A stretch of 64,000 bases of DNA. Origin: Sediminispirochaeta smaragdinae DSM 11293 (lineage in GTDB: Bacteria > Spirochaetota > Spirochaetia > DSM-16054 > Sediminispirochaetaceae). Positions 10,596 to 20,202 of the stretch are shown here, in pieces. The stretch lies in assembly GCF_000143985.1 (NCBI RefSeq), contig NC_014364.1, positions 1,426,001 through 1,490,000 on the forward strand. Direction: 5' to 3'. The position numbers and the translations under genes were made by a program. Each line of letters opens with the position of its first letter. Position 1 is the stretch's first letter. The notes beneath the pieces are model-generated. The model ran no database searches. It was not told where the DNA came from and worked only from the letters and a program-made list of their open reading frames with translations.

Positions 10596-11195
10596 TTATG
10601 CGATTGTGCCTTGAAACGAGGCGGTAAAGGCTTTTCCGGCCGATTCCGCCTTTTCCCGTGACGATGGATCTTTGGCAACAGATCCCGGATAAAAATGGGC
10701 TGGGAAGGCAAGCTCTGCGAAAATCTCATAGCCGACGACCTTAATAGCGTCCCTCATGGCGACGATGGTATATCCCATCTCCTTCGGATCTATTTGTTCG
10801 CATACCCCAAAGACCAAGGCTTTTTTACCTTTTCCGCTGAGCCGGGAGCTGTAAGGCCCCGGCCGTTGTTGAGAGAAATCGAAATAAGGATAAAGACGGT
10901 CGATGAAAGCCTTCATCCAAGGCGTCATGTTGTAATTGTATGTCGGCGATCCCAGGATAATACCATCCGCTTTTTCTATCTTGGGATAGAGCAGCTGCAT
11001 ACCGTCGAAAAACTGAGTGCACCGTTTCTCTTTTCGGCACTTCTCGCAACCGATACAGCCTTCGATATGATATGAAGGCAGATGGATATACTCAGCTTCT
11101 CCTCCTGCTTTCCGAACACCCTCAAGCATGCAAGAGATGATCGTTCTGGTATTTCCATTTTTTCGCGGACTTCCGTTGATTCCAAGAATTTTCAT
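10596..11195 (-). CDS. Iron-sulfur flavoprotein (NADPH-dependent FMN reductase fold)
   Basis: 199 residues. The N-terminus KILGINGSPRKNGNTR is the FMN phosphate-binding loop of the flavodoxin-like NADPH-FMN reductase family. It is followed by a compact cysteine cluster C-x2-C-x2-C-x5-C (CIGCEKCRKEKRC), matching the iron-sulfur flavoprotein (Isf) pattern known from methanogens and anaerobes, which binds a 4Fe-4S cluster. GSPTYNYNMTPWMKAFIDR forms the second FMN loop. Members reduce O2, peroxide or other acceptors with ferredoxin as donor (family knowledge). The gene is monocistronic and ends against the glucosidase. Confidence 0.85.
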   Translation of the reverse strand: MKILGINGSPRKNGNTRTIISCMLEGVRKAGGEAEYIHLPSYHIEGCIGCEKCRKEKRCTQFFDGMQLLYPKIEKADGIILGSPTYNYNMTPWMKAFIDRLYPYFDFSQQRPGPYSSRLSGKGKKALVFGVCEQIDPKEMGYTIVAMRDAIKVVGYEIFAELAFPAHFYPGSVAKDPSSREKAESAGKAFTASFQGTIA

Positions 11196-11234: not shown

Positions 11235-11984
11235 TCAGGTCAAGGAAAGATGTTCGATTTTATTTAGGGTGAGTCCGATATGCGATTCCATAACCGCTTT
11301 TGCCTGTGCCGCATCATGCTTTTGCAGGGCCTCAAGCATTTTATGGTGGTCGGTGATACTTGTTTCAATGCTCCCATGTACATAGCCGGTCTTGCCAAAG
11401 CATTTGACGAGCAGATCGCGCAGGTACCTGTACAGCGACATAAGAATCTTATTGCCGGTGGCATTGATGATTGATTGATGAAGTTTCAAATCAAGAAGGT
11501 TATAGGCATCTATCTCCCCTGTTTGGGCCTTAGCATCAAGTTCTTCCACAATTCGGGTAAATTGTGAGACGAAATTCGGCGGAGGATTCTGGGTTACATC
11601 GTATATTGCCTGAACTTCAATAATCCTGCGCGTTTTTGTGAGGTCGAGAAACAATTCTTTCTGTTCGGGAAGATGAAAAACAAACGACGCCATCAAGGTT
11701 TCTAAAAAGTAGTCGAGATTGTTGTTTTTAACAAAAACACCTTTACCCTGTTTTGTTTCCACCATACCCCGTGATTCCAGAGAGCGTATGGCCTCTCTGA
11801 TGGAGCGCGTTCCGACATGCAGCTTTGCCGATAGTTCAGCCTGAGAAGGTAATTTATCTCCCGTCTCCAAATTGTTCTCGACGATAAAGTCTTCAATCGC
11901 ACGAGTTACTTCATCGGAAATTTTCATGCGTGGTAACGGTAAAATGTCTTTCACATATACAACCTTTTGCCTGCGATGCATCAT
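11235..11984 (-). CDS. GntR/FadR-family transcriptional regulator
   Basis: 249 residues. The N-terminal winged helix is clear (DKLPSQAELSAKLHVGTRSIREAIRSLESRGMVETKQGKGVFV). The C-terminal all-helical FCD domain has a metal/ligand-binding Asp/His pattern (DLKLHQSIINATGN, then DHHKMLEAL and AVMESHIGLT). ATG 11984 and an ATG at 11981 are adjacent. Its promoter has perfect -35 and -10 hexamers with the putative operator across the -35, so the regulator should repress itself. The same operator is found at the two divergent/downstream operons, which points to control of the 12.1-20.2 kb catabolic locus with a pathway compound as inducer (inference). Confidence 0.92.
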   Translation of the reverse strand: MMHRRQKVVYVKDILPLPRMKISDEVTRAIEDFIVENNLETGDKLPSQAELSAKLHVGTRSIREAIRSLESRGMVETKQGKGVFVKNNNLDYFLETLMASFVFHLPEQKELFLDLTKTRRIIEVQAIYDVTQNPPPNFVSQFTRIVEELDAKAQTGEIDAYNLLDLKLHQSIINATGNKILMSLYRYLRDLLVKCFGKTGYVHGSIETSITDHHKMLEALQKHDAAQAKAVMESHIGLTLNKIEHLSLT

Positions 11985-12019
11985 GCATAAGAATTTTTGT
12001 GCACCGCCGATGTGAGTGG

Positions 12020-12047
12020 ATTATACGCCATCATGGACTTATGTCAA
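12020..12047 (-). promoter_or_regulatory. Consensus promoter and operator of the GntR regulator gene
   Basis: On the minus strand TTGACA (12047 to 12042), 16 bases, TATAAT (12025 to 12020): both hexamers match the sigma-70 consensus exactly. The -35 is part of TTGACATAAGTCCA, a copy of the operator-like sequence found at the two other promoters of the locus. Confidence 0.8.
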
Positions 12048-12067
12048 GAGTTTAGTGAAAAGTTTAG

Positions 12068-12096
12068 TTGACATATGACATAAGTCATGATAACGT
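12068..12096 (+). promoter_or_regulatory. Promoter and operator of the lyase-kinase-isomerase operon
   Basis: TTGACA at 12068-12073, a 17-base spacer, then a weak -10 TAACGT (12091-12096). The palindrome ATGACATAAGTCAT (12075-12088) fills the spacer, so a bound regulator would exclude RNA polymerase. The block AGTTGACATATGACATAAGT recurs intact upstream of the binding-protein gene. Confidence 0.7.
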
Positions 12097-12144
12097 TTTT
12101 TTGTCTTAAGGAATCAACTTAACGAATACAAGGTGTTGAACAGA

Positions 12145-13086
12145 ATGCGAAAAGAAATTGTAAGTGGTGTATATCCTACGATGGTGACGCCATTCAAAGA
12201 GAATCTTGCCATAGATTATGAAGCACTTGAGTGCCTCATGAACTGGTATAGTGAAAAGGAAATTGACGGCCTGTTTTCCGTATGTCAGTCCAGTGCGATG
12301 TTTGAATTATCGAGAAGGGAACGCAAGCAGTTGTGCAGGAAAACAGTTGAGCTATCCAGGGGAAGGTTCCCTGTCATGGCATCGGGCCATATCTCAGATA
12401 GTATTTCGGATCAGGTTGACGAATTGATGGATATGGCAGAGGCTGGTGCAGACGCACTTGTTTTGGTTTCCAATAGGCTTGCATCTCCCGACCAGAATGA
12501 TACCGTCTGGCTTACGTCCCTTGAAAAGTTGATGGCGGCTCTTCCCGATACCGTTCCCCTTGGCCTCTATGAATGTCCCTATCCCTATAAACGGCTTCTC
12601 TCCGAGGAAGTCCTTATTGCCTTGATTGCGACAAAACGCTTTCAATTCATTAAAGACACCTGCTGCAGCCCCTCTCTCATAGCAAAGCGTGCTGCCTTGG
12701 CAAAGGGAAGCAACGTAAAGTTTTTCAACGCAAATGCAGCGACACTTCTCTATTCGCTCCGGCAGGGATATGCCGGATATAGCGGAGTCATGGCCAACTT
12801 TCATCCGGAACTCTACAGGAAGTTATGTCACGACTGGGAGAGCATGGGGAAAAGCGCCGAAGAACTCCAAAACTACATTGGAACCGCTTCGGTCATAGAA
12901 TATCAATCCTATCCTGCCAATGCCAAGTATGCACTCATGAAAGAAGGTATTTTCTCAACTGAGATATGCAGGCGTTCTGATGCGCGATACACGATTTTGA
13001 GCGATTCACAGCGGCTTGAGGTCGATCAGTTTCGCGCACTTTCGGCGGATATGTGTGCCCGATTCCTGTCGGAGCGGGGAGCGTAA
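12145..13086 (+). CDS. DapA/NanA-superfamily lyase of unknown specificity
   Basis: 313 residues from ATG 12145; an upstream GTG at 12133 is possible but gives an atypical N-terminus. It belongs to the dihydrodipicolinate synthase/N-acetylneuraminate lyase superfamily: the Schiff-base lysine is Lys170 (FQFIKDTCC) and the catalytic tyrosine Tyr142 (LYECP), with the spacing expected from DapA. The usual pyruvate-carboxylate-binding GTTGE motif is replaced by VCQSSAMFELS, so true DapA or NanA activity is unlikely. It is the first gene of an operon with a ribokinase-like kinase and a SIS isomerase, which suggests an aldolase or dehydratase acting on a keto-acid sugar derivative (inference). An operator for the neighbouring GntR protein lies at its promoter. 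Confidence 0.8.
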   Translation: MRKEIVSGVYPTMVTPFKENLAIDYEALECLMNWYSEKEIDGLFSVCQSSAMFELSRRERKQLCRKTVELSRGRFPVMASGHISDSISDQVDELMDMAEAGADALVLVSNRLASPDQNDTVWLTSLEKLMAALPDTVPLGLYECPYPYKRLLSEEVLIALIATKRFQFIKDTCCSPSLIAKRAALAKGSNVKFFNANAATLLYSLRQGYAGYSGVMANFHPELYRKLCHDWESMGKSAEELQNYIGTASVIEYQSYPANAKYALMKEGIFSTEICRRSDARYTILSDSQRLEVDQFRALSADMCARFLSERGA

Positions 13087-13091
13087 TAGAG

Positions 13092-14096
13092 ATGGCAAAG
13101 CCCCCGAGGATCTTGGTGGTCGGAAGTTTTGTGATGGATCTGATCGTCACAACAGAGGTGTTTCCCGGCTCTGGCGAAACGGTGTTGGGGAAATCCTTTG
13201 CAACGGCTCCTGGAGGGAAGGGTGCCAACCAGGCGGTTCAAGCCGCCCGCCTGGGAGCCGATGTCACGATGATCGGTAAGGTCGGAGATGATGAGTTCGG
13301 AAGGACTCTGGTTCATTCCTGTGAGAAGGCTGGGATCAATACCCAATACGTGACGGTCGCAAAGAAAACCGCTTCCGCGGTTGGAGATGTACTGTTGGAA
13401 GAGGTGGCAGGCAAGGGGACGACGAATCGGATCATCGTTGTGTCCGGTGCAAATATGTCCATCGGGGCGGAGGATATATCCTTCGTAAAGGAGATTGTCG
13501 ACCAATATGCAATGGTGATGTTGCAATTGGAGATTCCGATGGAGATCAATGAGTTGGTAGTCGAATATGCCTCATCAAAAGGGGTACCGGTCATGCTCAA
13601 CTCCGCACCGGCTTCCGCACTATCCGATGACTTGCTTGCAGGGCTTAGCTACATCTCGCCCAATGAACATGAGATACAGGCGCTTACCGGAATACCCATC
13701 AGGAAGGAAGATAAACGGGTTAACCGTGATGATCTAAGAGCCGCAGCCGAGGTGTTGCTGAAAAAAGGCGTGAAGAATGTGCTTGTTACCTTGGGAAACG
13801 GCGGTTCTGCGCTGATTAATAGGAATGAGTTTCTTGTGCAGCCCTGTATCGATGTGGTGGATGTAAAAGACCCGACGGCAGCCGGGGATTCGTTTGTAGC
13901 TGCGTTTGTGAGCGGACTGGGTACCGGAATGAACCATGAACAGGCGTTACTGTTCGCAAGTTATACGGCGGCATTGACGGTGTCGCGTCCTGGTGCACAG
14001 CCGTCGTTGCCGTATTTGAGCGCGGTTACCGATTTAATGGCCAAAGGCCGGGAACAGGGCGTCGAGCCGAACCTGTTGGATGTGCTGAAGGGATAG
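13092..14096 (+). CDS. Ribokinase-like PfkB-family sugar kinase
   Basis: 334 residues from ATG 13092; the open frame upstream to 13053 overlaps the lyase and was not used. Motifs are the N-terminal VVGSFVMDLI, GGKGANQAVQAARLGADVTMIGKVGDDEFG (PfkB signature 1, sugar-binding Gly-Gly and Asn) and VKDPTAAGDSFVAAF (signature 2, with catalytic Asp and the anion-hole AAGD as in RbsK). It phosphorylates a sugar with ATP; ribose is the nearest guess, but the operon context suggests a sugar released from the imported compound. It lies 5 bases downstream of the lyase and 8 bases upstream of the SIS gene. Confidence 0.88.
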   Translation: MAKPPRILVVGSFVMDLIVTTEVFPGSGETVLGKSFATAPGGKGANQAVQAARLGADVTMIGKVGDDEFGRTLVHSCEKAGINTQYVTVAKKTASAVGDVLLEEVAGKGTTNRIIVVSGANMSIGAEDISFVKEIVDQYAMVMLQLEIPMEINELVVEYASSKGVPVMLNSAPASALSDDLLAGLSYISPNEHEIQALTGIPIRKEDKRVNRDDLRAAAEVLLKKGVKNVLVTLGNGGSALINRNEFLVQPCIDVVDVKDPTAAGDSFVAAFVSGLGTGMNHEQALLFASYTAALTVSRPGAQPSLPYLSAVTDLMAKGREQGVEPNLLDVLKG

Positions 14097-14104
14097 GAGA
14101 AGCC

Positions 14105-14746
14105 ATGGAAGAGTTGAAAGCGGGACAGGAGGCTCTGGACCGATTTGTCGATACGGCAAGCAAAGCGTTCGGCCGGTATGCCGAGCTTATTACGAGGGAC
14201 ATGTACGAGGATGCGGTCGAACTCATTCTTGCCGCTGAAAAACGGGGGAATCGGGTGCATATCACCGGAATCGGGAAGCCGTCGCATGTGGCAGAGTATG
14301 TAGCCTCATTACTCTCCTCTACCGGAACCCCGACCTACTACTTGCACGGGACTGAGGCGGTGCACGGTTCTTGCGGCCAATTGCTTCCCGGGGATGTTGT
14401 CATTTGTATTTCCAATAGCGGGGAGACGGTGGAACTGAAGGCCACTGTCTCTGCGATCAAAAGAAATGGATGTACGGTTATTGCGGTGACGGGAAATGCC
14501 AGCTCGTGGTTGGCACAGGAGGGGGATGCACATCTGTTTGCTGGGGTCCCCGAGGAAGGGGGCCCTCTTGATCGCGCACCGCGGATTTCGGTACTCGCTG
14601 AAATTCTCATTCTTCAGGGCTTAAGCGTCATCTTGCAGAGCGTTCGGGGAGTGAGCCCTGAAGAGTATGTGATGTGGCACCCTGGCGGAGCATTGGGCCA
14701 GTTGCGAAGCCATGAGACGAAGGCAACAGGGAGGCAGGTATGCTGA
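14105..14746 (+). CDS. Single SIS-domain phosphosugar isomerase, KpsF/GutQ-like without CBS
   Basis: 213 residues forming one SIS domain: ITGIGKPSHVAEYVASLLSSTGTP, HGTEAVHGSCGQLLPGDVVICISNSGETVEL and the WHPGGALG terminus that is characteristic of the arabinose-5-phosphate isomerase (KpsF/GutQ/KdsD) branch. The paired CBS domains of those enzymes are absent. It should interconvert an aldose and ketose phosphate supplied by the neighbouring kinase. A deglycase role on a phosphorylated sugar-amine is an alternative, since SIS proteins beside PfkB kinases and amino-acid importers occur in Amadori-product catabolism; those deglycases usually have two SIS domains. Confidence 0.82.
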   Translation: MEELKAGQEALDRFVDTASKAFGRYAELITRDMYEDAVELILAAEKRGNRVHITGIGKPSHVAEYVASLLSSTGTPTYYLHGTEAVHGSCGQLLPGDVVICISNSGETVELKATVSAIKRNGCTVIAVTGNASSWLAQEGDAHLFAGVPEEGGPLDRAPRISVLAEILILQGLSVILQSVRGVSPEEYVMWHPGGALGQLRSHETKATGRQVC

Positions 14747-14786
14747 GGGGGCCGTGTCTTCATACGGAATTTGCAATCATAAATAG

Positions 14787-14815
14787 TTGACATATGACAT
14801 AAGTTAGCATACCAT
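14787..14815 (+). promoter_or_regulatory. Promoter and operator of the ABC importer operon
   Basis: TTGACA (14787-14792), 17 bases, TACCAT (14810-14815). The spacer carries ATGACATAAGTTAG, a one-sided version of the palindrome at the lyase promoter. The start would fall near 14822, giving a leader of about 28 bases before the AAGGAGG ribosome-binding site. Confidence 0.72.
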
Positions 14816-14849
14816 TATGCATACTTCATTCAGATTAAGGAGGACGACA

Positions 14850-15698
14850 ATGCAAGTACGATTTTTACAGAAAAAAAGTATCATCCTTTTGGCCTTGGTG
14901 ATGATTCTTTCCCTTTTGGTAGGGGCTTGTTCAAACGGAGGACAGTCTGCTGCTAATGCGACAAAGGTACAGGAGGATGCACTCCAGAAGATTCTGAAGA
15001 GTGGAAAATTGGTGATAGCCACAGACCTGACAGGACCGCCTGTTCAGTACAAAGATGCGGAAGGAAAGCCTGCCGGATTAATCGTAGAGCTGATGGAGCT
15101 TGCTGCGAAGGAGTTGGGTGTAGAGATCGAATGGCAGGACATGGCTTGGGAGAGCCTGATTCCCTCTTTGACTGCCGGTAAGGTGGATATGATAGCGGCA
15201 AACATGTCGATGTCCTTATCGAGGGCAAAGGCGATCCGTTTTTCCGATCCTTATATGTTTACCGGTGTGTATGCGATGGTGCGGAAGGATAGCGGTATTC
15301 GGGATTGGGAAGAGTTGCTTGAACCCGGCAAGATCCTGGCGGCAACAATGGGTTCTTCTCATGCGACCTACCTGAAGGAAAACTATAACTACGAGCCAAA
15401 ACAGTATGAAAGTTCAACCGACTTTATCAATGAGCTGAAAAACGGGAGGATCGACGGTGTAATGGATGATGAACTCCTTTTATTGGAGTTTTGTAAGCAA
15501 AATCCAGAATTTACCCTCACTGCCAACCCCGTACGTCCCGATGTGTACGGCTTGGCATTCACGCAGGGAAATCAGAACGATACCTTGGTTGATTGGTTCA
15601 ATTGGTTTTTGAAATGGGAAAAGCTTAATGGAAATTATGGAACAATCTACAAGAAATTTGTGGGCAAGGATTGGACGCCAAACCCAGTAATCCAATAA
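14850..15698 (+). CDS. Amino-acid ABC transporter substrate-binding lipoprotein (family 3)
   Basis: 282 residues from ATG 14850, which follows a strong AAGGAGG; the in-frame ATG at 14817 lies at the expected transcription start and is not used. A lipoprotein signal ends in LLVGAC. The mature protein is a bacterial family-3 solute-binding protein: KLVIATDLTGPPVQYKDAEGKPAGLIVELMELAAKELG, then WESLIPSLTAGKVDMIAANMSMSLSRAKAIRFSDPY, and VMDDELLLLEF. Such proteins feed polar amino acids, opines or amino-acid conjugates to PAO/Art-type importers. First gene of an operon with its ATPase and two permeases. Confidence 0.92.
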   Translation: MQVRFLQKKSIILLALVMILSLLVGACSNGGQSAANATKVQEDALQKILKSGKLVIATDLTGPPVQYKDAEGKPAGLIVELMELAAKELGVEIEWQDMAWESLIPSLTAGKVDMIAANMSMSLSRAKAIRFSDPYMFTGVYAMVRKDSGIRDWEELLEPGKILAATMGSSHATYLKENYNYEPKQYESSTDFINELKNGRIDGVMDDELLLLEFCKQNPEFTLTANPVRPDVYGLAFTQGNQNDTLVDWFNWFLKWEKLNGNYGTIYKKFVGKDWTPNPVIQ

Positions 15699-15720
15699 GC
15701 TTAAAAGGCACAACACTTTA

Positions 15721-15746
15721 TGCGGAGGAGGGGAGCCTCTTCCGCA
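15721..15746 (+). other. Intercistronic hairpin between binding protein and ATPase genes
   Basis: TGCGGAGGAG and CTCTTCCGCA pair nine of ten bases around a six-base loop. The stem lies 22 bases after the binding-protein stop without a T-tract. Such stems commonly protect the upstream mRNA so that the binding protein is made in excess over the membrane components. Confidence 0.5.
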
Positions 15747-15767
15747 ATGTATTTTCAGGAAGGTTCC

Positions 15768-16514
15768 ATGAAGAAAGAAGAACTCGTTAGAATTACCGAT
15801 CTATCATTCAAATACGGCACTACACAGGTGCTTTCCGATTTAAGTCTCACTGTGGAGGAAGGCGATATACTTGTTATCTGCGGTCCCAGTGGTTCCGGAA
15901 AGAGTACCTTGCTGCGTTGCATCAATCAGCTTGAACACAGTCACCATGGCAGCGTAAAAGTTCTCGGCATGGAGATTTCCGGTGGCAAAAAGAACCGAAA
16001 GAATTTGACTGAAGTTAGAAAGCGATGCGGAATGGTATTTCAGCATTTCGATCTGTTTCCCCATCTCACGGTTTTGGACAATGTTGCAATCGGGCCCATA
16101 AAGGTAAAGCACGAAAATGAGGCAGAGGTAAAAGAACGGGCGAAGAAGCTGCTCGATCTTGTTGGTTTATCCGAAAAATATGATGTGTATCCTTCGCAAC
16201 TATCCGGCGGCCAAAAGCAGCGGGTTGCAATTGCACGCTCTCTGGCAATGAATCCCGAACTCATGCTTTTTGATGAGCCGACCAGTGCTCTTGATCCGGA
16301 AATGATTAAGGACGTCTTGTCGGTTATGAAGGACCTTGCACTTCAAGGAATGACTATGGTTATTGTCACCCACGAAATGGGTTTTGCCCGTGAGGTTGCT
16401 ACAAAGGTTTGTTTTCTCGAACGAGGGGAAATTCTTGAGCTCACAGATAAAGATCAGTTTTTTCATAATCCGACGAGTGATCGAGCAAAAGAATTTTTGA
16501 GAAAAATCCTTTAG
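15768..16514 (+). CDS. Polar amino-acid ABC transporter ATP-binding protein
   Basis: 248 residues from ATG 15768, which has CAGGAAGG upstream; an upstream in-frame ATG at 15720 falls within the hairpin and is unlikely. Walker A GPSGSGKST, Q-loop GMVFQHFDLFPHLTVLDNV, signature LSGGQKQRVAIARSL, Walker B LMLFDEPTSALDPE and H-loop VIVTHE are all intact. It is of the GlnQ/HisP type that energises polar amino-acid uptake with the two following permeases. Confidence 0.95.
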   Translation: MKKEELVRITDLSFKYGTTQVLSDLSLTVEEGDILVICGPSGSGKSTLLRCINQLEHSHHGSVKVLGMEISGGKKNRKNLTEVRKRCGMVFQHFDLFPHLTVLDNVAIGPIKVKHENEAEVKERAKKLLDLVGLSEKYDVYPSQLSGGQKQRVAIARSLAMNPELMLFDEPTSALDPEMIKDVLSVMKDLALQGMTMVIVTHEMGFAREVATKVCFLERGEILELTDKDQFFHNPTSDRAKEFLRKIL

Positions 16515-16530
16515 CCATCGGGAGTGTGTC

Positions 16531-17181
16531 ATGCAGATATATATTATTATCCAGTATCTCCCAGATTTCCTCAAAGCGGCATTGGAGACATTGAAAATTG
16601 CGTTTTTCAGTGCTTGTATTGCGCTTTTTTTGGGACTCGTTCTGGCGACTGTAAACCAGGCAAAGATTCGGCTGCTTTCCATGATTATCGATGCATACAC
16701 GATTATTATGCGTAGCACTCCACTATTGGTGCAGTTATACTTTATCTATTACGGCTTGCCGCTTCTTGGTATTCAGGTAAATCCGTATGTGAGTTCGGTC
16801 ATAGCTTTTTCGCTAAACACAGGAGCCTATGTCGTTGAGATTTTCCGTGGAGGCCTGGAAGGTATCGATAAGGGACAGTTTTACGCCGCCTATTCTCTTG
16901 GCATGGGTTGGTTTGCCTGCCTCCGGTATATCATTTTCCCTCAGGTCCTACAGCGGGTTATTGCTCCGCTTTTGTCTCAATTCTCATATCTGATAAAGGA
17001 TACCAGCCTTGCTGCAGTGTTAGTCGTCCAAGAATTGACATATACCTATCGAAATGTTTCCTCCTCTACCTACAGGCCGATGGAAGCCTTAGTCATACCG
17101 ATGATAATTTATTTCTTGCTCTACATTGTGTTCAGACTTGCTAGTATGTCCTTCGAAACCAAAAAGGCAAGCAGGGGGTAA
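16531..17181 (+). CDS. Polar amino-acid ABC permease 1
   Basis: 216 residues with about five membrane segments and the HisM/GlnP-type motifs: TLKIAFFSACIALFLGLVL at the N-terminus, RSTPLLVQLYFIYYGLP and the EAA loop NTGAYVVEIFRGGLEGIDKGQFYAAYSLGM. It pairs with the next permease as a heterodimer. Base composition is visibly more AT-rich here than in the flanking housekeeping genes. Confidence 0.93.
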   Translation: MQIYIIIQYLPDFLKAALETLKIAFFSACIALFLGLVLATVNQAKIRLLSMIIDAYTIIMRSTPLLVQLYFIYYGLPLLGIQVNPYVSSVIAFSLNTGAYVVEIFRGGLEGIDKGQFYAAYSLGMGWFACLRYIIFPQVLQRVIAPLLSQFSYLIKDTSLAAVLVVQELTYTYRNVSSSTYRPMEALVIPMIIYFLLYIVFRLASMSFETKKASRG

Positions 17182-17184
17182 ATC

Positions 17185-17841
17185 ATGTTCTTTGAAGATA
17201 TTTCCGTATTGCATCAGATCCTCCGCCTTGGAAAAGCATTTCTTATCAATCTCTCTTTCTTACCAATAGTTTTGCTTATCGGTCTTATACTGGGTTCTGT
17301 TATTGCCGTTGTTCGGTATTATAAGATACGTATTCTGTCTCAGTTTTTCTCCCTTCTTGTCGAGATCATCAGGGGAGCCCCTTTCTTGCTTCTGGTATAT
17401 GCAACGTTTTTTATTCTTCCCAATATCGGGATTTCCCTTTCTCCTTTTGGAACGGGCGTTTGTGTATTGTCTTTCACGTCATCCGCCTTTATGTCCGAAA
17501 TTTTCCTGAGTGGACTTCGCAGCATTGATACCGGGCAGTATTTTGCCGCTGATTCGATTGGCATGAATTTTTTTCAGAAAATGACGTTGATCATTTTTCC
17601 GCAGATGATCAAATTAACGTTGCCTTCGATCGTTGGTCAGGTGATTATGACGATAAAGGATACTTCCATCGTATCACTTGTCGGACTTGCCGAGGTGGTG
17701 AGAACATCACGACAGATGTCTTTGCTGACGCAAAACTCTTTTCTCGCATTTCTGATCGTGGGCGGGTATTTTTTTGTTATCTGTTATCCGTTGATTCTCG
17801 TTTCTAAAAATCTGGAACGGCGTCTTAGTACTCGCCACTAG
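17185..17841 (+). CDS. Polar amino-acid ABC permease 2
   Basis: 218 residues, same family and topology as the preceding gene (EIIRGAPFLLLVYATFFILP; EAA region TSSAFMSEIFLSGLRSIDTGQYFAADSIGM). It starts 3 bases after the previous stop (ATG 17185) and is followed 15 bases later by the alanine racemase gene. Confidence 0.93.
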   Translation: MFFEDISVLHQILRLGKAFLINLSFLPIVLLIGLILGSVIAVVRYYKIRILSQFFSLLVEIIRGAPFLLLVYATFFILPNIGISLSPFGTGVCVLSFTSSAFMSEIFLSGLRSIDTGQYFAADSIGMNFFQKMTLIIFPQMIKLTLPSIVGQVIMTIKDTSIVSLVGLAEVVRTSRQMSLLTQNSFLAFLIVGGYFFVICYPLILVSKNLERRLSTRH

Positions 17842-17856
17842 TTTGAGGTTACTTTT

Positions 17857-18972
17857 ATGCGTCCTACAAAGGCCCGTATCGATTTAGATCTGTATCGTCA
17901 TAATATTCGAGTCATTTCGAAGAAAACCGGCGGCAGGAAGATCTGTCTGGTGGTCAAAGCAAATGCATACGGCCACGGCTCCGTAAAGATGGCAAAGGTC
18001 GGTATTGAGGCCGGTGCACAGGCTCTTGGTGTTGCTACCGTGGATGAGGCTCTTGAGCTTCGGGAGGCCGGAATTGCGGCACCTATCTTTCTATTTACGG
18101 TAGCCGACGTTTCCGAGGTCCCCCAGCTCGTTAGATTTGACATTATTCCCTTTGTCTCCGATTTGGCATACATCAAACAGATTGAACGAGAAGCCCAAAA
18201 CCAGGAAAAAGTGGCTATGGTCCATCTCAAGGTTGATACCGGTATGGGACGGCTGGGTTGTCGACCCGAAGAAGCTTTGTCTCTGGCAAGCTTTGTCGGT
18301 AATAGTAAAAACCTTATGATGGGAGGGCTCTGTACGCATTTTTCCCTTTCGGATATCTCTGATCGTGCTTATACGCTTTTACAGATTAATAGGCTTAACC
18401 TACTTGTAGATACTCTTCGGTCCCAGCATATCCCTTATGGGCTTGTGCATGCTGCGAACACCGGTGCGATTATTCAGTATCCGGAGGCTTATTACGACAT
18501 GGTAAGGCCTGGTCTGGGTATCTTTGGGTATCCTCCCGATCTTATCCATATGGGGAGGGATAGAGCAGATCTTAGACCGGTTCTGTCCATGGAGACAAAG
18601 ATCGGACTCATTAAGACAATAAAAAAGGGTGAGAGTGTCTCCTATGGGAGAACATTTGTTGCTGAGAACGATACGCATATCGGTGTCGTAGCGGCCGGTT
18701 TCTGCGATGGCTACCCAAGAAGTCTCTCAAATAAAGGATTTGTCACAATCAAGGGAAAACACTATCCGGTTATCGGAATGGTCTGCATGGATCAATTAAT
18801 CGTTGATCTTGGTCGGGATCTGCAGGTAGACCCGGACGATACAGTGGTCTTACTGGGCCATGGCCGTAATGAACCGACAATGGTCGACCTTACCCAGAGG
18901 GGTAATATCATCGTTAATGAAGTTATTTGTCGAATTCCTGCAAGAGTTCCCAAGGTCTACATCAATGAATAA
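17857..18972 (+). CDS. alr: Alanine racemase
   Basis: 371 residues. PLP lysine is Lys34 in VVKANAYGHG; the opposing catalytic tyrosine is in VSYGRTF; GMVCMDQLIVDL and the NEVICRIPARVPKVY terminus complete the fold-type-III pattern. Full-length and apparently functional. Its place after an amino-acid importer and before an aminotransferase suggests use in catabolism, converting D- to L-alanine or the reverse as amino donor or product, rather than only cell-wall supply. An Alr-related racemase of other amino acids cannot be excluded. Confidence 0.93.
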   Translation: MRPTKARIDLDLYRHNIRVISKKTGGRKICLVVKANAYGHGSVKMAKVGIEAGAQALGVATVDEALELREAGIAAPIFLFTVADVSEVPQLVRFDIIPFVSDLAYIKQIEREAQNQEKVAMVHLKVDTGMGRLGCRPEEALSLASFVGNSKNLMMGGLCTHFSLSDISDRAYTLLQINRLNLLVDTLRSQHIPYGLVHAANTGAIIQYPEAYYDMVRPGLGIFGYPPDLIHMGRDRADLRPVLSMETKIGLIKTIKKGESVSYGRTFVAENDTHIGVVAAGFCDGYPRSLSNKGFVTIKGKHYPVIGMVCMDQLIVDLGRDLQVDPDDTVVLLGHGRNEPTMVDLTQRGNIIVNEVICRIPARVPKVYINE

Positions 18973-19017
18973 ATCTTGCAGCACATATTACCACAACTAT
19001 TCGCAGAGGAGAATACT

Positions 19018-20202
19018 ATGGGCAATCATCAGCAGATGAGATTTGGAAGCAAAAAACTACACTGGCTTGTTCCCGACGCTTTTGGTTTTATCCGTGAGAT
19101 GAAACTGAAGCCTCCAAGAAACTTTGATACGTTTATCGACCTCTCCATCGGCGCCCCGAACCGGGCGACACCAAAAAACATTCTTGATCAATTTGTTCAG
19201 GATGTTTATGTAGAGAAATATCACACCTACCCACCCCAATTCGGGGCAATGGAATTATGTGAAGCCGTCGCAGCGTGGTATGAGAAACGCTTTGCCGTTC
19301 GTATTGATCCCCGGACCGAGGTATTAATTACCGTGGGAATCAAAGAAGCGATCTTCAATGCATTTCACGCATTGCTCAACCCCGGTGAGGTTCTTGTCAT
19401 TCCGGATCCCGGTTATCCGACCTATTTCGAGGCGGGGGATTTTTGCGGTGCCAAGTTGATCACCTATAACAGTAACGCAGACGAGGCTGCTGTTTTGCAG
19501 GAGATCGAGGCAATTGCCGAACTCCATCATCCAAGTTATGTCGTCGTCAATTATCCTTCAAATCCGACGGGTCGACTGGTCGGCATTAGCTTTTATGAAC
19601 AACTTTCCCGGCTTGCTTCTCGTTACGATTTTGCAATCATGAGCGACCTGGCCTATTCGGAGATAGCTTTCGATGATAGGCGTGCTACAAGTTATCTTAC
19701 AGGAAACAACGGAACCTCCATGGCCTTGGAGTTCTTTGCCTTTTCAAAGACATACAACATGGCGGGATGGCGAGTCGGCGCGATTGTTGCCCAAAAAGAG
19801 ATCCTCGATGCCGTGAAACTCTACAAATCAAAGATCGATTCGAATGTGTTCTATCCTATACAGCTTGCCGCCGCGACGGCACTAAAGAGTATGGATGAGA
19901 CATTTTATCAGGAACTTTCATCGATGTATCAAAAGAGACGTGACATTTTGTGTGCGGGATTGTCTGCATGTGGACTCCGTTTTACGAAACCGGAGGGTGC
20001 CATGTATGTCTGGGTGGAGGTCCCTGCCGGCATGAATGCCTGGGATTTTATCCAGGCGCTATATGATGATTACGGCTTTGTGGGAGTTCCCGGCACGGCG
20101 TATGGAAAGAACGGTGGAGGATATATCCGCTTAGGCCTTGTCCAGGAAGAAGCGGTACTGGAAGAGGTTGCTAAGCGTCTCGGATCGGGAAATTTCGCAT
20201 AG
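19018..20202 (+). CDS. PLP-dependent class I/II aminotransferase
   Basis: 394 residues from ATG 19018, preceded by GAGGAG; the in-frame upstream ATG at 18976 has no ribosome-binding site. Fold-type-I motifs are DPGYPTYFEAG, NYPSNPTGR, SDLAYSEIAFD, FSKTYNMAGWRVG (PLP lysine in SKT) and YIRLGLV. The closest general groups are alanine/aspartate and LL-diaminopimelate aminotransferases; substrate undetermined. It is last in the ABC-alr operon and is followed by a hairpin terminator. Together with Alr it could move an amino group from the imported compound to pyruvate. Confidence 0.9.
   Translation: MGNHQQMRFGSKKLHWLVPDAFGFIREMKLKPPRNFDTFIDLSIGAPNRATPKNILDQFVQDVYVEKYHTYPPQFGAMELCEAVAAWYEKRFAVRIDPRTEVLITVGIKEAIFNAFHALLNPGEVLVIPDPGYPTYFEAGDFCGAKLITYNSNADEAAVLQEIEAIAELHHPSYVVVNYPSNPTGRLVGISFYEQLSRLASRYDFAIMSDLAYSEIAFDDRRATSYLTGNNGTSMALEFFAFSKTYNMAGWRVGAIVAQKEILDAVKLYKSKIDSNVFYPIQLAAATALKSMDETFYQELSSMYQKRRDILCAGLSACGLRFTKPEGAMYVWVEVPAGMNAWDFIQALYDDYGFVGVPGTAYGKNGGGYIRLGLVQEEAVLEEVAKRLGSGNFA

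Follow-up and report, generated by a model that had tools for sequence, protein, structure and literature searches.

Gene content of the locus

The window, which is the whole 64,000-nucleotide stretch of DNA analysed from the marine spirochaete Sediminispirochaeta smaragdinae, contains a presumed regulated stretch of ∼9 kb (11235-20202). In this stretch, the gene for a GntR/FadR-subfamily regulator diverges from genes for a lyase, a sugar kinase, a SIS protein, an amino-acid-type ABC importer, an alanine racemase and an aminotransferase (Table 1).

Table 1. Genes, promoters and operators of the presumed regulon (positions in the window).
Feature	Position	Strand	Remarks
GntR/FadR-subfamily regulator, FCD domain	11235..11954	-	Pfam GntR + FCD; GTG start at 11954 probable
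Regulator promoter	12020..12047	-	TTGACA-16-TATAAT, 12/12 consensus positions
Half-operator O2	12038..12046	-	One arm, TGACATAAG, on regulator -35
Lyase promoter	12068..12096	+	-35 TTGACA 12068-12073; weak -10 TAACGT 12091-12096
Operator O1	12069..12087	.	19-bp palindrome TGACATATG-A-CATAAGTCA at lyase promoter
Lyase, DHDPS/NAL family, uncharacterised subfamily	12145..13086	+	Pfam DHDPS; below every NCBIfam cut-off
PfkB/ribokinase-like sugar kinase	13092..14096	+	TIGR02152, 292 bits (cut-off 299.65)
SIS protein like single-domain arabinose-5-phosphate isomerases	14105..14746	+	PDB 5uqi, 2xhz; kpsF/KdsD models
Importer promoter	14787..14815	+	TTGACA-17-TACCAT, 10/12 consensus positions
Operator O3	14788..14806	.	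TGACATATGACATAAGTTA, 1 mismatch to consensus, importer promoter
Substrate-binding lipoprotein, SBP family 3	14850..15698	+	
Amino-acid-type ABC ATPase	15765..16514	+	
ABC permease 1	16531..17181	+	
ABC permease 2	17185..17841	+	
Alanine racemase	17857..18972	+	TIGR00492, 357.9 bits
Class I/II aminotransferase, presumed regulon end	19012..20202	+	

The regulator scores above the Pfam cut-offs for an N-terminal GntR helix-turn-helix (HTH) domain (64.8 bits) and a C-terminal FCD domain (77.5 bits). Its longest open reading frame begins at 11984; orthologues begin at the position that corresponds to residue 11. Residues D155, H159, H203 and H225 of the FCD domain, which we take to be the metal ligands, are invariant across 15 regulator sequences. 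The best NCBIfam and PDB matches are both to NanR, but the NCBIfam score (108.6 bits) falls far below the NanR cut-off of 260 bits.

The AF2 model of the lyase (pLDDT 94.8) aligns with N-acetylneuraminate lyase at a VIA Z score of 35.0 (rmsd 2.0, 295 aligned). Fold comparison could not assign the substrate: matches to N-acetylneuraminate lyase, DHDPS and other aldolases all score Z 34-35 and do not discriminate. No characterised member of the lyase's own subfamily was found. The SIS protein matches a phosphosugar isomerase (5uqi, E 2.5e-27) and an arabinose-5-phosphate isomerase (2xhz, E 2.2e-25) and keeps the motifs HGTEAVHG and HPGGALG, with scores below the kpsF/KdsD subfamily and equivalog cut-offs. 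No KdsA above the cut-off was found in the genome, where the sole match to the KdsA model reaches 124 bits against 314; a role for the SIS protein in Kdo biosynthesis is thus disfavoured, and the protein is probably catabolic. The alanine racemase is one of two in the genome, the second being encoded elsewhere and 41% identical.

A 19-bp palindrome at the lyase and importer promoters

The operator has a palindromic 19-bp consensus, TGACWTATG-W-CATAWGTCA. Both copies at the locus, O1 and O3, are located between the -35 and -10 hexamers of their promoters; they have 21 identical bases in common, and their flanks are little alike (10/38 and 16/40). O3 is present in the sister species too, there as ...GTGA. 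The -35 of the lyase promoter is perfect and its -10 poor, at a 17-nt spacing, and the promoter scan left it unscored. Searching the 4.65-Mb genome with TGACWTATGWCATAWGTCA at up to three mismatches returned two sites only (12069-12087 and 14788-14806), and the reversed pattern returned none at the same threshold. In simulated first-order Markov genomes of 4.65 Mb, 0-0.2 sites are expected at up to one mismatch. The sequence TGACATAWGTCA has one exact occurrence in the whole genome.

These results bear on an original prediction made from the sequence, which had placed ATGACATAAGTCAT at 12075-12088 in the lyase promoter and a repeat of AGTTGACATATGACATAAGT from 14785 in the importer promoter; both are where it put them, and the regulator promoter that it had called perfect, with a 16-base spacer, does match at every position. 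The third copy that it had described, TTGACATAAGTCCA, lies on the minus strand at 12047-12034 over the regulator -35 but is a single operator arm, not a full copy. Similarly, the predicted operator, ATGAC-N4-GTCAT, proved to be the right-hand part of the conserved element. Since the central base is A in some orthologues and T in others, the 19-bp palindrome is the conserved unit, rather than this 14-bp motif, which in that register is absent from the orthologues with a central T. The regulon, described as self-contained and about 8 kb long, appears self-contained in that both genomic sites lie at the locus, but it is the somewhat longer stretch given above. The interpretation is supported in its main points, with the register and length of the operator corrected.

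Conservation of the operator among Spirochaetia

Conservation of the motif upstream of orthologous operons had been set as a check on the prediction, and it was borne out. In a class sample of 395 genomes, orthologues of the regulator (46-98% identity) occur in 13 further genomes; 13 of the 14 regulators, the window's own included, are at least 51% identical and form the counting set (51-100%). The divergent promoters of 12 of these 13 regulators, from eight genera, contain the palindrome with 0-2 mismatches, a count for which the consensus was partly derived from the same sequences. The exception, in genome G228 (68% identity), has four mismatches, and the regulator of genome G231 (about 45-46% identity) is accompanied by a site with five. 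In the relatives, the palindrome fills the gap between the -35 and -10 of TTGACT-17-TACAAT promoters, the same place as in the lyase promoter here. In 10 of 13 orthologues, the arm TGACWTAWG lies on the regulator -35, at a distance of 18-22 bp from O1, and the regulator promoter is TTGACA-N16-TAYAAT-like in most orthologues. Additional half-sites have been described for FadR-subfamily operators (PMC4494728).

Every exact operator site from the class scan adjoins an FCD regulator. Operator-like sites of family f9, found upstream of dnaA and elsewhere, were rejected as regulon members because they have no FCD regulator nearby and the reversed control was comparable at two mismatches. In f9 genomes that have no FCD regulator nearby, operator-like palindromes, up to three per 180 bp, also lie close downstream of dnaA or next to it, on the opposite side of the gene's start (L059:1341-1519 and L063:1501-1519). 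Eight copies of TGGCATATGAAATATGTCA, mostly ∼621 bases apart, in genome G021 (C8:54-6329, L043) are apparently a tandem array without relation to the operator regulon.

Regulator residue 28 and the operator core

In FadR-subfamily sites, Arg at HTH position 28 accompanies the G/C in the TKGT/ACMA boxes (Suvorova et al., PMC4494728); the TKGT-N3-ACMA core is common in the subfamily rather than defining, and its members NanR and BioR depart from it too (PMC4494728). The operator core described here, TTAT-GWC-ATAA, has A in place of the G and so does not match the FadR-subfamily core. Residues 23-85 of the regulator match positions 2-64 of the Pfam profile, which puts Ala49 (249-aa numbering) at position 28, where the family usually has Arg, if PMC4494728 numbers the GntR domain as Pfam does. 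The operator, with 0-2 mismatches, accompanies all sampled FCD proteins with Ala28, those at L052-L054 (∼28% identity) among them, and none of the four with Arg28. This association agrees with the published rule linking Arg28 to G/C (PMC4494728); it is correlative, and the proteins sampled are few and related. At L052, L053 and L054 the operator is exact; the L053 regulator lies, as judged by eye, between isocitrate/isopropylmalate-dehydrogenase-like and iron-type alcohol-dehydrogenase-like genes.

A proposed repressor switch

On this sequence evidence, we consider it probable (roughly 0.8) that the FCD regulator and the 19-bp palindrome control the lyase and importer promoters as a repressor switch. 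The FadR-subfamily (FCD) repressor is proposed to bind TGACWTATG-W-CATAWGTCA. Repressor on O1 and O3 would keep RNA polymerase off the catabolic promoters, whose genes would thus stay silent, and the half-operator O2 would give weak repression of the regulator gene. The operators would be freed by a carboxylate ligand bound at the FCD metal site; the probable ligand is the substrate of the pathway or the 2-keto-3-deoxy acid. Most likely, the importer and breakdown genes for an acidic sugar-like nutrient would in this way be switched on together.

Since some FadR-subfamily members activate, the regulator could instead be an activator, or act in both ways, at these promoters. We regard this as unlikely, because steric repression is favoured by the location of O1 and O3 between the -35 and -10 hexamers. 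Even less probable is that the sites serve a different, more global regulator and that the adjacent FCD protein acts elsewhere. The palindrome does also adjoin FCD regulators of just ∼28% identity and a DapA paralogue in genome G008, but the window's genome has its two sites only at the FCD regulator's own locus, and the exact sites of the class scan are likewise confined to the neighbourhood of FCD regulators. The G008 locus (L027:8960-15111) contains a paralogous FCD regulator (35%), the DapA-like gene and a second set of TRAP genes, with an operator at 10934 (1 mismatch); cross-regulation with the orthologous locus of G008 is possible. Finally, although all three sites overlap a -35 hexamer, they are most improbably just similar strong promoters (a TTGACA -35 and an AT-rich spacer) without an operator, since the conserved positions run through the spacer, which is unconstrained in promoters, and across genera, and chance predicts ∼0-0.2 such sites per genome.

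Apparent exchange of the importer

In most relatives, a TRAP importer operon, dctP-dctQ-dctM-lyase, is transcribed divergently from the regulator gene; the exceptions are the window's own genus, G228 (without TRAP) and G231 (without a close lyase). The TRAP importer is replaced in Sediminispirochaeta by an amino-acid-type ABC importer that has an operator copy of its own, and the kinase and the arabinose-5-phosphate-isomerase-like protein are added. No TRAP permease orthologue was found in the window's genome (best match 36%). Because the window's lyase falls among the TRAP-linked lyases in the lyase tree, with moderate support, the ABC arrangement looks derived.

Elsewhere in this genome, a paralogous cluster (G000:C1:816000-829500; L164:4364-13452) contains an FCD regulator, two DHDPS-family enzymes and an SBP-3 ABC importer, as well as a class V aminotransferase, a kinase (66% identical to the window's), a SIS protein (75%) and an RbsD/FucU protein, and has no 19-bp operator near its FCD regulator. 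From these similar genes without such an operator, the window's regulon looks like an old pair of regulator and lyase to which a module of this type was joined, with an operator copy placed at the importer promoter. The operator would thus have been kept while the type of importer under its control was exchanged.

Predicted sugar-acid pathway

A general route of import, lyase, kinase and isomerase has, in our estimate, slightly better than even odds. Import would be by TRAP in the relatives and by the amino-acid-type ABC system here, and the racemase and aminotransferase perhaps make the keto acid from an amino-acid precursor. Aldol cleavage by the lyase would yield pyruvate and an aldose, which would pass through the PfkB kinase and the KdsD-like isomerase to the pentose phosphate pathway. 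The gene string at L181:4431-12937 (G352, Spirochaetia), namely IclR - TRAP PQM - lyase - PfkB kinase - SIS - phosphohexomutase with RbsD/FucU divergent, points to a single pathway for the importer and all three enzymes, with a different regulator in control, and the lyase, kinase, SIS and RbsD genes occur together at one locus of a Ruminococcaceae genome. Because a close SIS homologue is missing from most TRAP-lyase genomes, the kinase and isomerase steps are not universal.

We propose that the substrate is a 2-keto-3-deoxy sugar acid, possibly Kdo. Conversion of such an acid to pyruvate and an aldopentose would account for the lyase, the RbsD-type mutarotase (where present), the kinase and the isomerase; the natural candidate is Kdo. 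Our tentative suggestion is that the operon serves catabolism of Kdo or a close stereoisomer, with the lyase as a Kdo aldolase forming pyruvate and D-arabinose, followed by the kinase and a catabolic arabinose-5-phosphate isomerase. A Kdo (3-deoxy-manno-octulosonate) cytidylyltransferase gene, scoring over the curated cut-off, adjoins the TRAP-lyase locus at L082:10152-14114, and some other lyase relatives adjoin BNR-repeat (sialidase-like) proteins (7 of 80 loci). Gfo/Idh-like and BNR-repeat genes are also present at L082. To our knowledge, Kdo aldolase activity (EC 4.1.2.23) has no assigned gene; a limited literature search on such a gene and on Kdo catabolism gave nothing useful.

Kdo alone does not account for the amino-acid-like importer, the racemase and the aminotransferase. 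It is possible, if doubtful, that the importer operon serves ordinary amino acids and shares only the regulator, outside the lyase pathway, as the resemblance of the SBP family 3 protein, alanine racemase and aminotransferase to amino-acid genes would suggest. Against this, the lyase and importer promoters have the operator in common, and the 816-829 kb cluster again unites DapA-like enzymes, an SBP-3 ABC importer, an aminotransferase, a kinase and a SIS protein.

Implications and relation to known systems

The analysis assigns an operator and a regulon, in testable form, to an uncharacterised FCD regulator of many Spirochaetia genera, associates an uncommon operator core with one HTH residue, that at position 28, and suggests a lyase-kinase-isomerase route for a sugar acid. 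If the Kdo reading is true, it would also provide a gene family for EC 4.1.2.23 and a case of importer replacement under a conserved operator.

The lyase shares its fold with the DHDPS/N-acetylneuraminate lyase superfamily, and its conserved Lys and Tyr sit where we would expect the Schiff-base Lys and catalytic Tyr of that family, but it forms a subfamily of its own with the motifs QSS[AE]MF, YECPYPYKR and KDTCC. The SIS protein has its fold family and its two motifs in common with KdsD/GutQ/KpsF and single-domain 5uqi and, unlike KdsD/GutQ/KpsF, has no CBS domains. The lyase under NanR control is of the NAL family, and NanR of other bacteria also governs a TRAP importer; here, no gene of the operon was recognised as NanK/NanE-like, and the operator is an inverted repeat, whereas NanR sites are TGGTATAW direct repeats. 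The regulatory design is conventional and the operator core uncommon: the regulator resembles FadR, PdhR, LldR and NanR in its GntR winged helix, its FCD metal-ligand residues and a palindromic operator over divergent promoters, but differs from them in the core TTATG-W-CATAA, in Ala/Ser28 instead of Arg, and in the added outer TGAC/GTCA arms.
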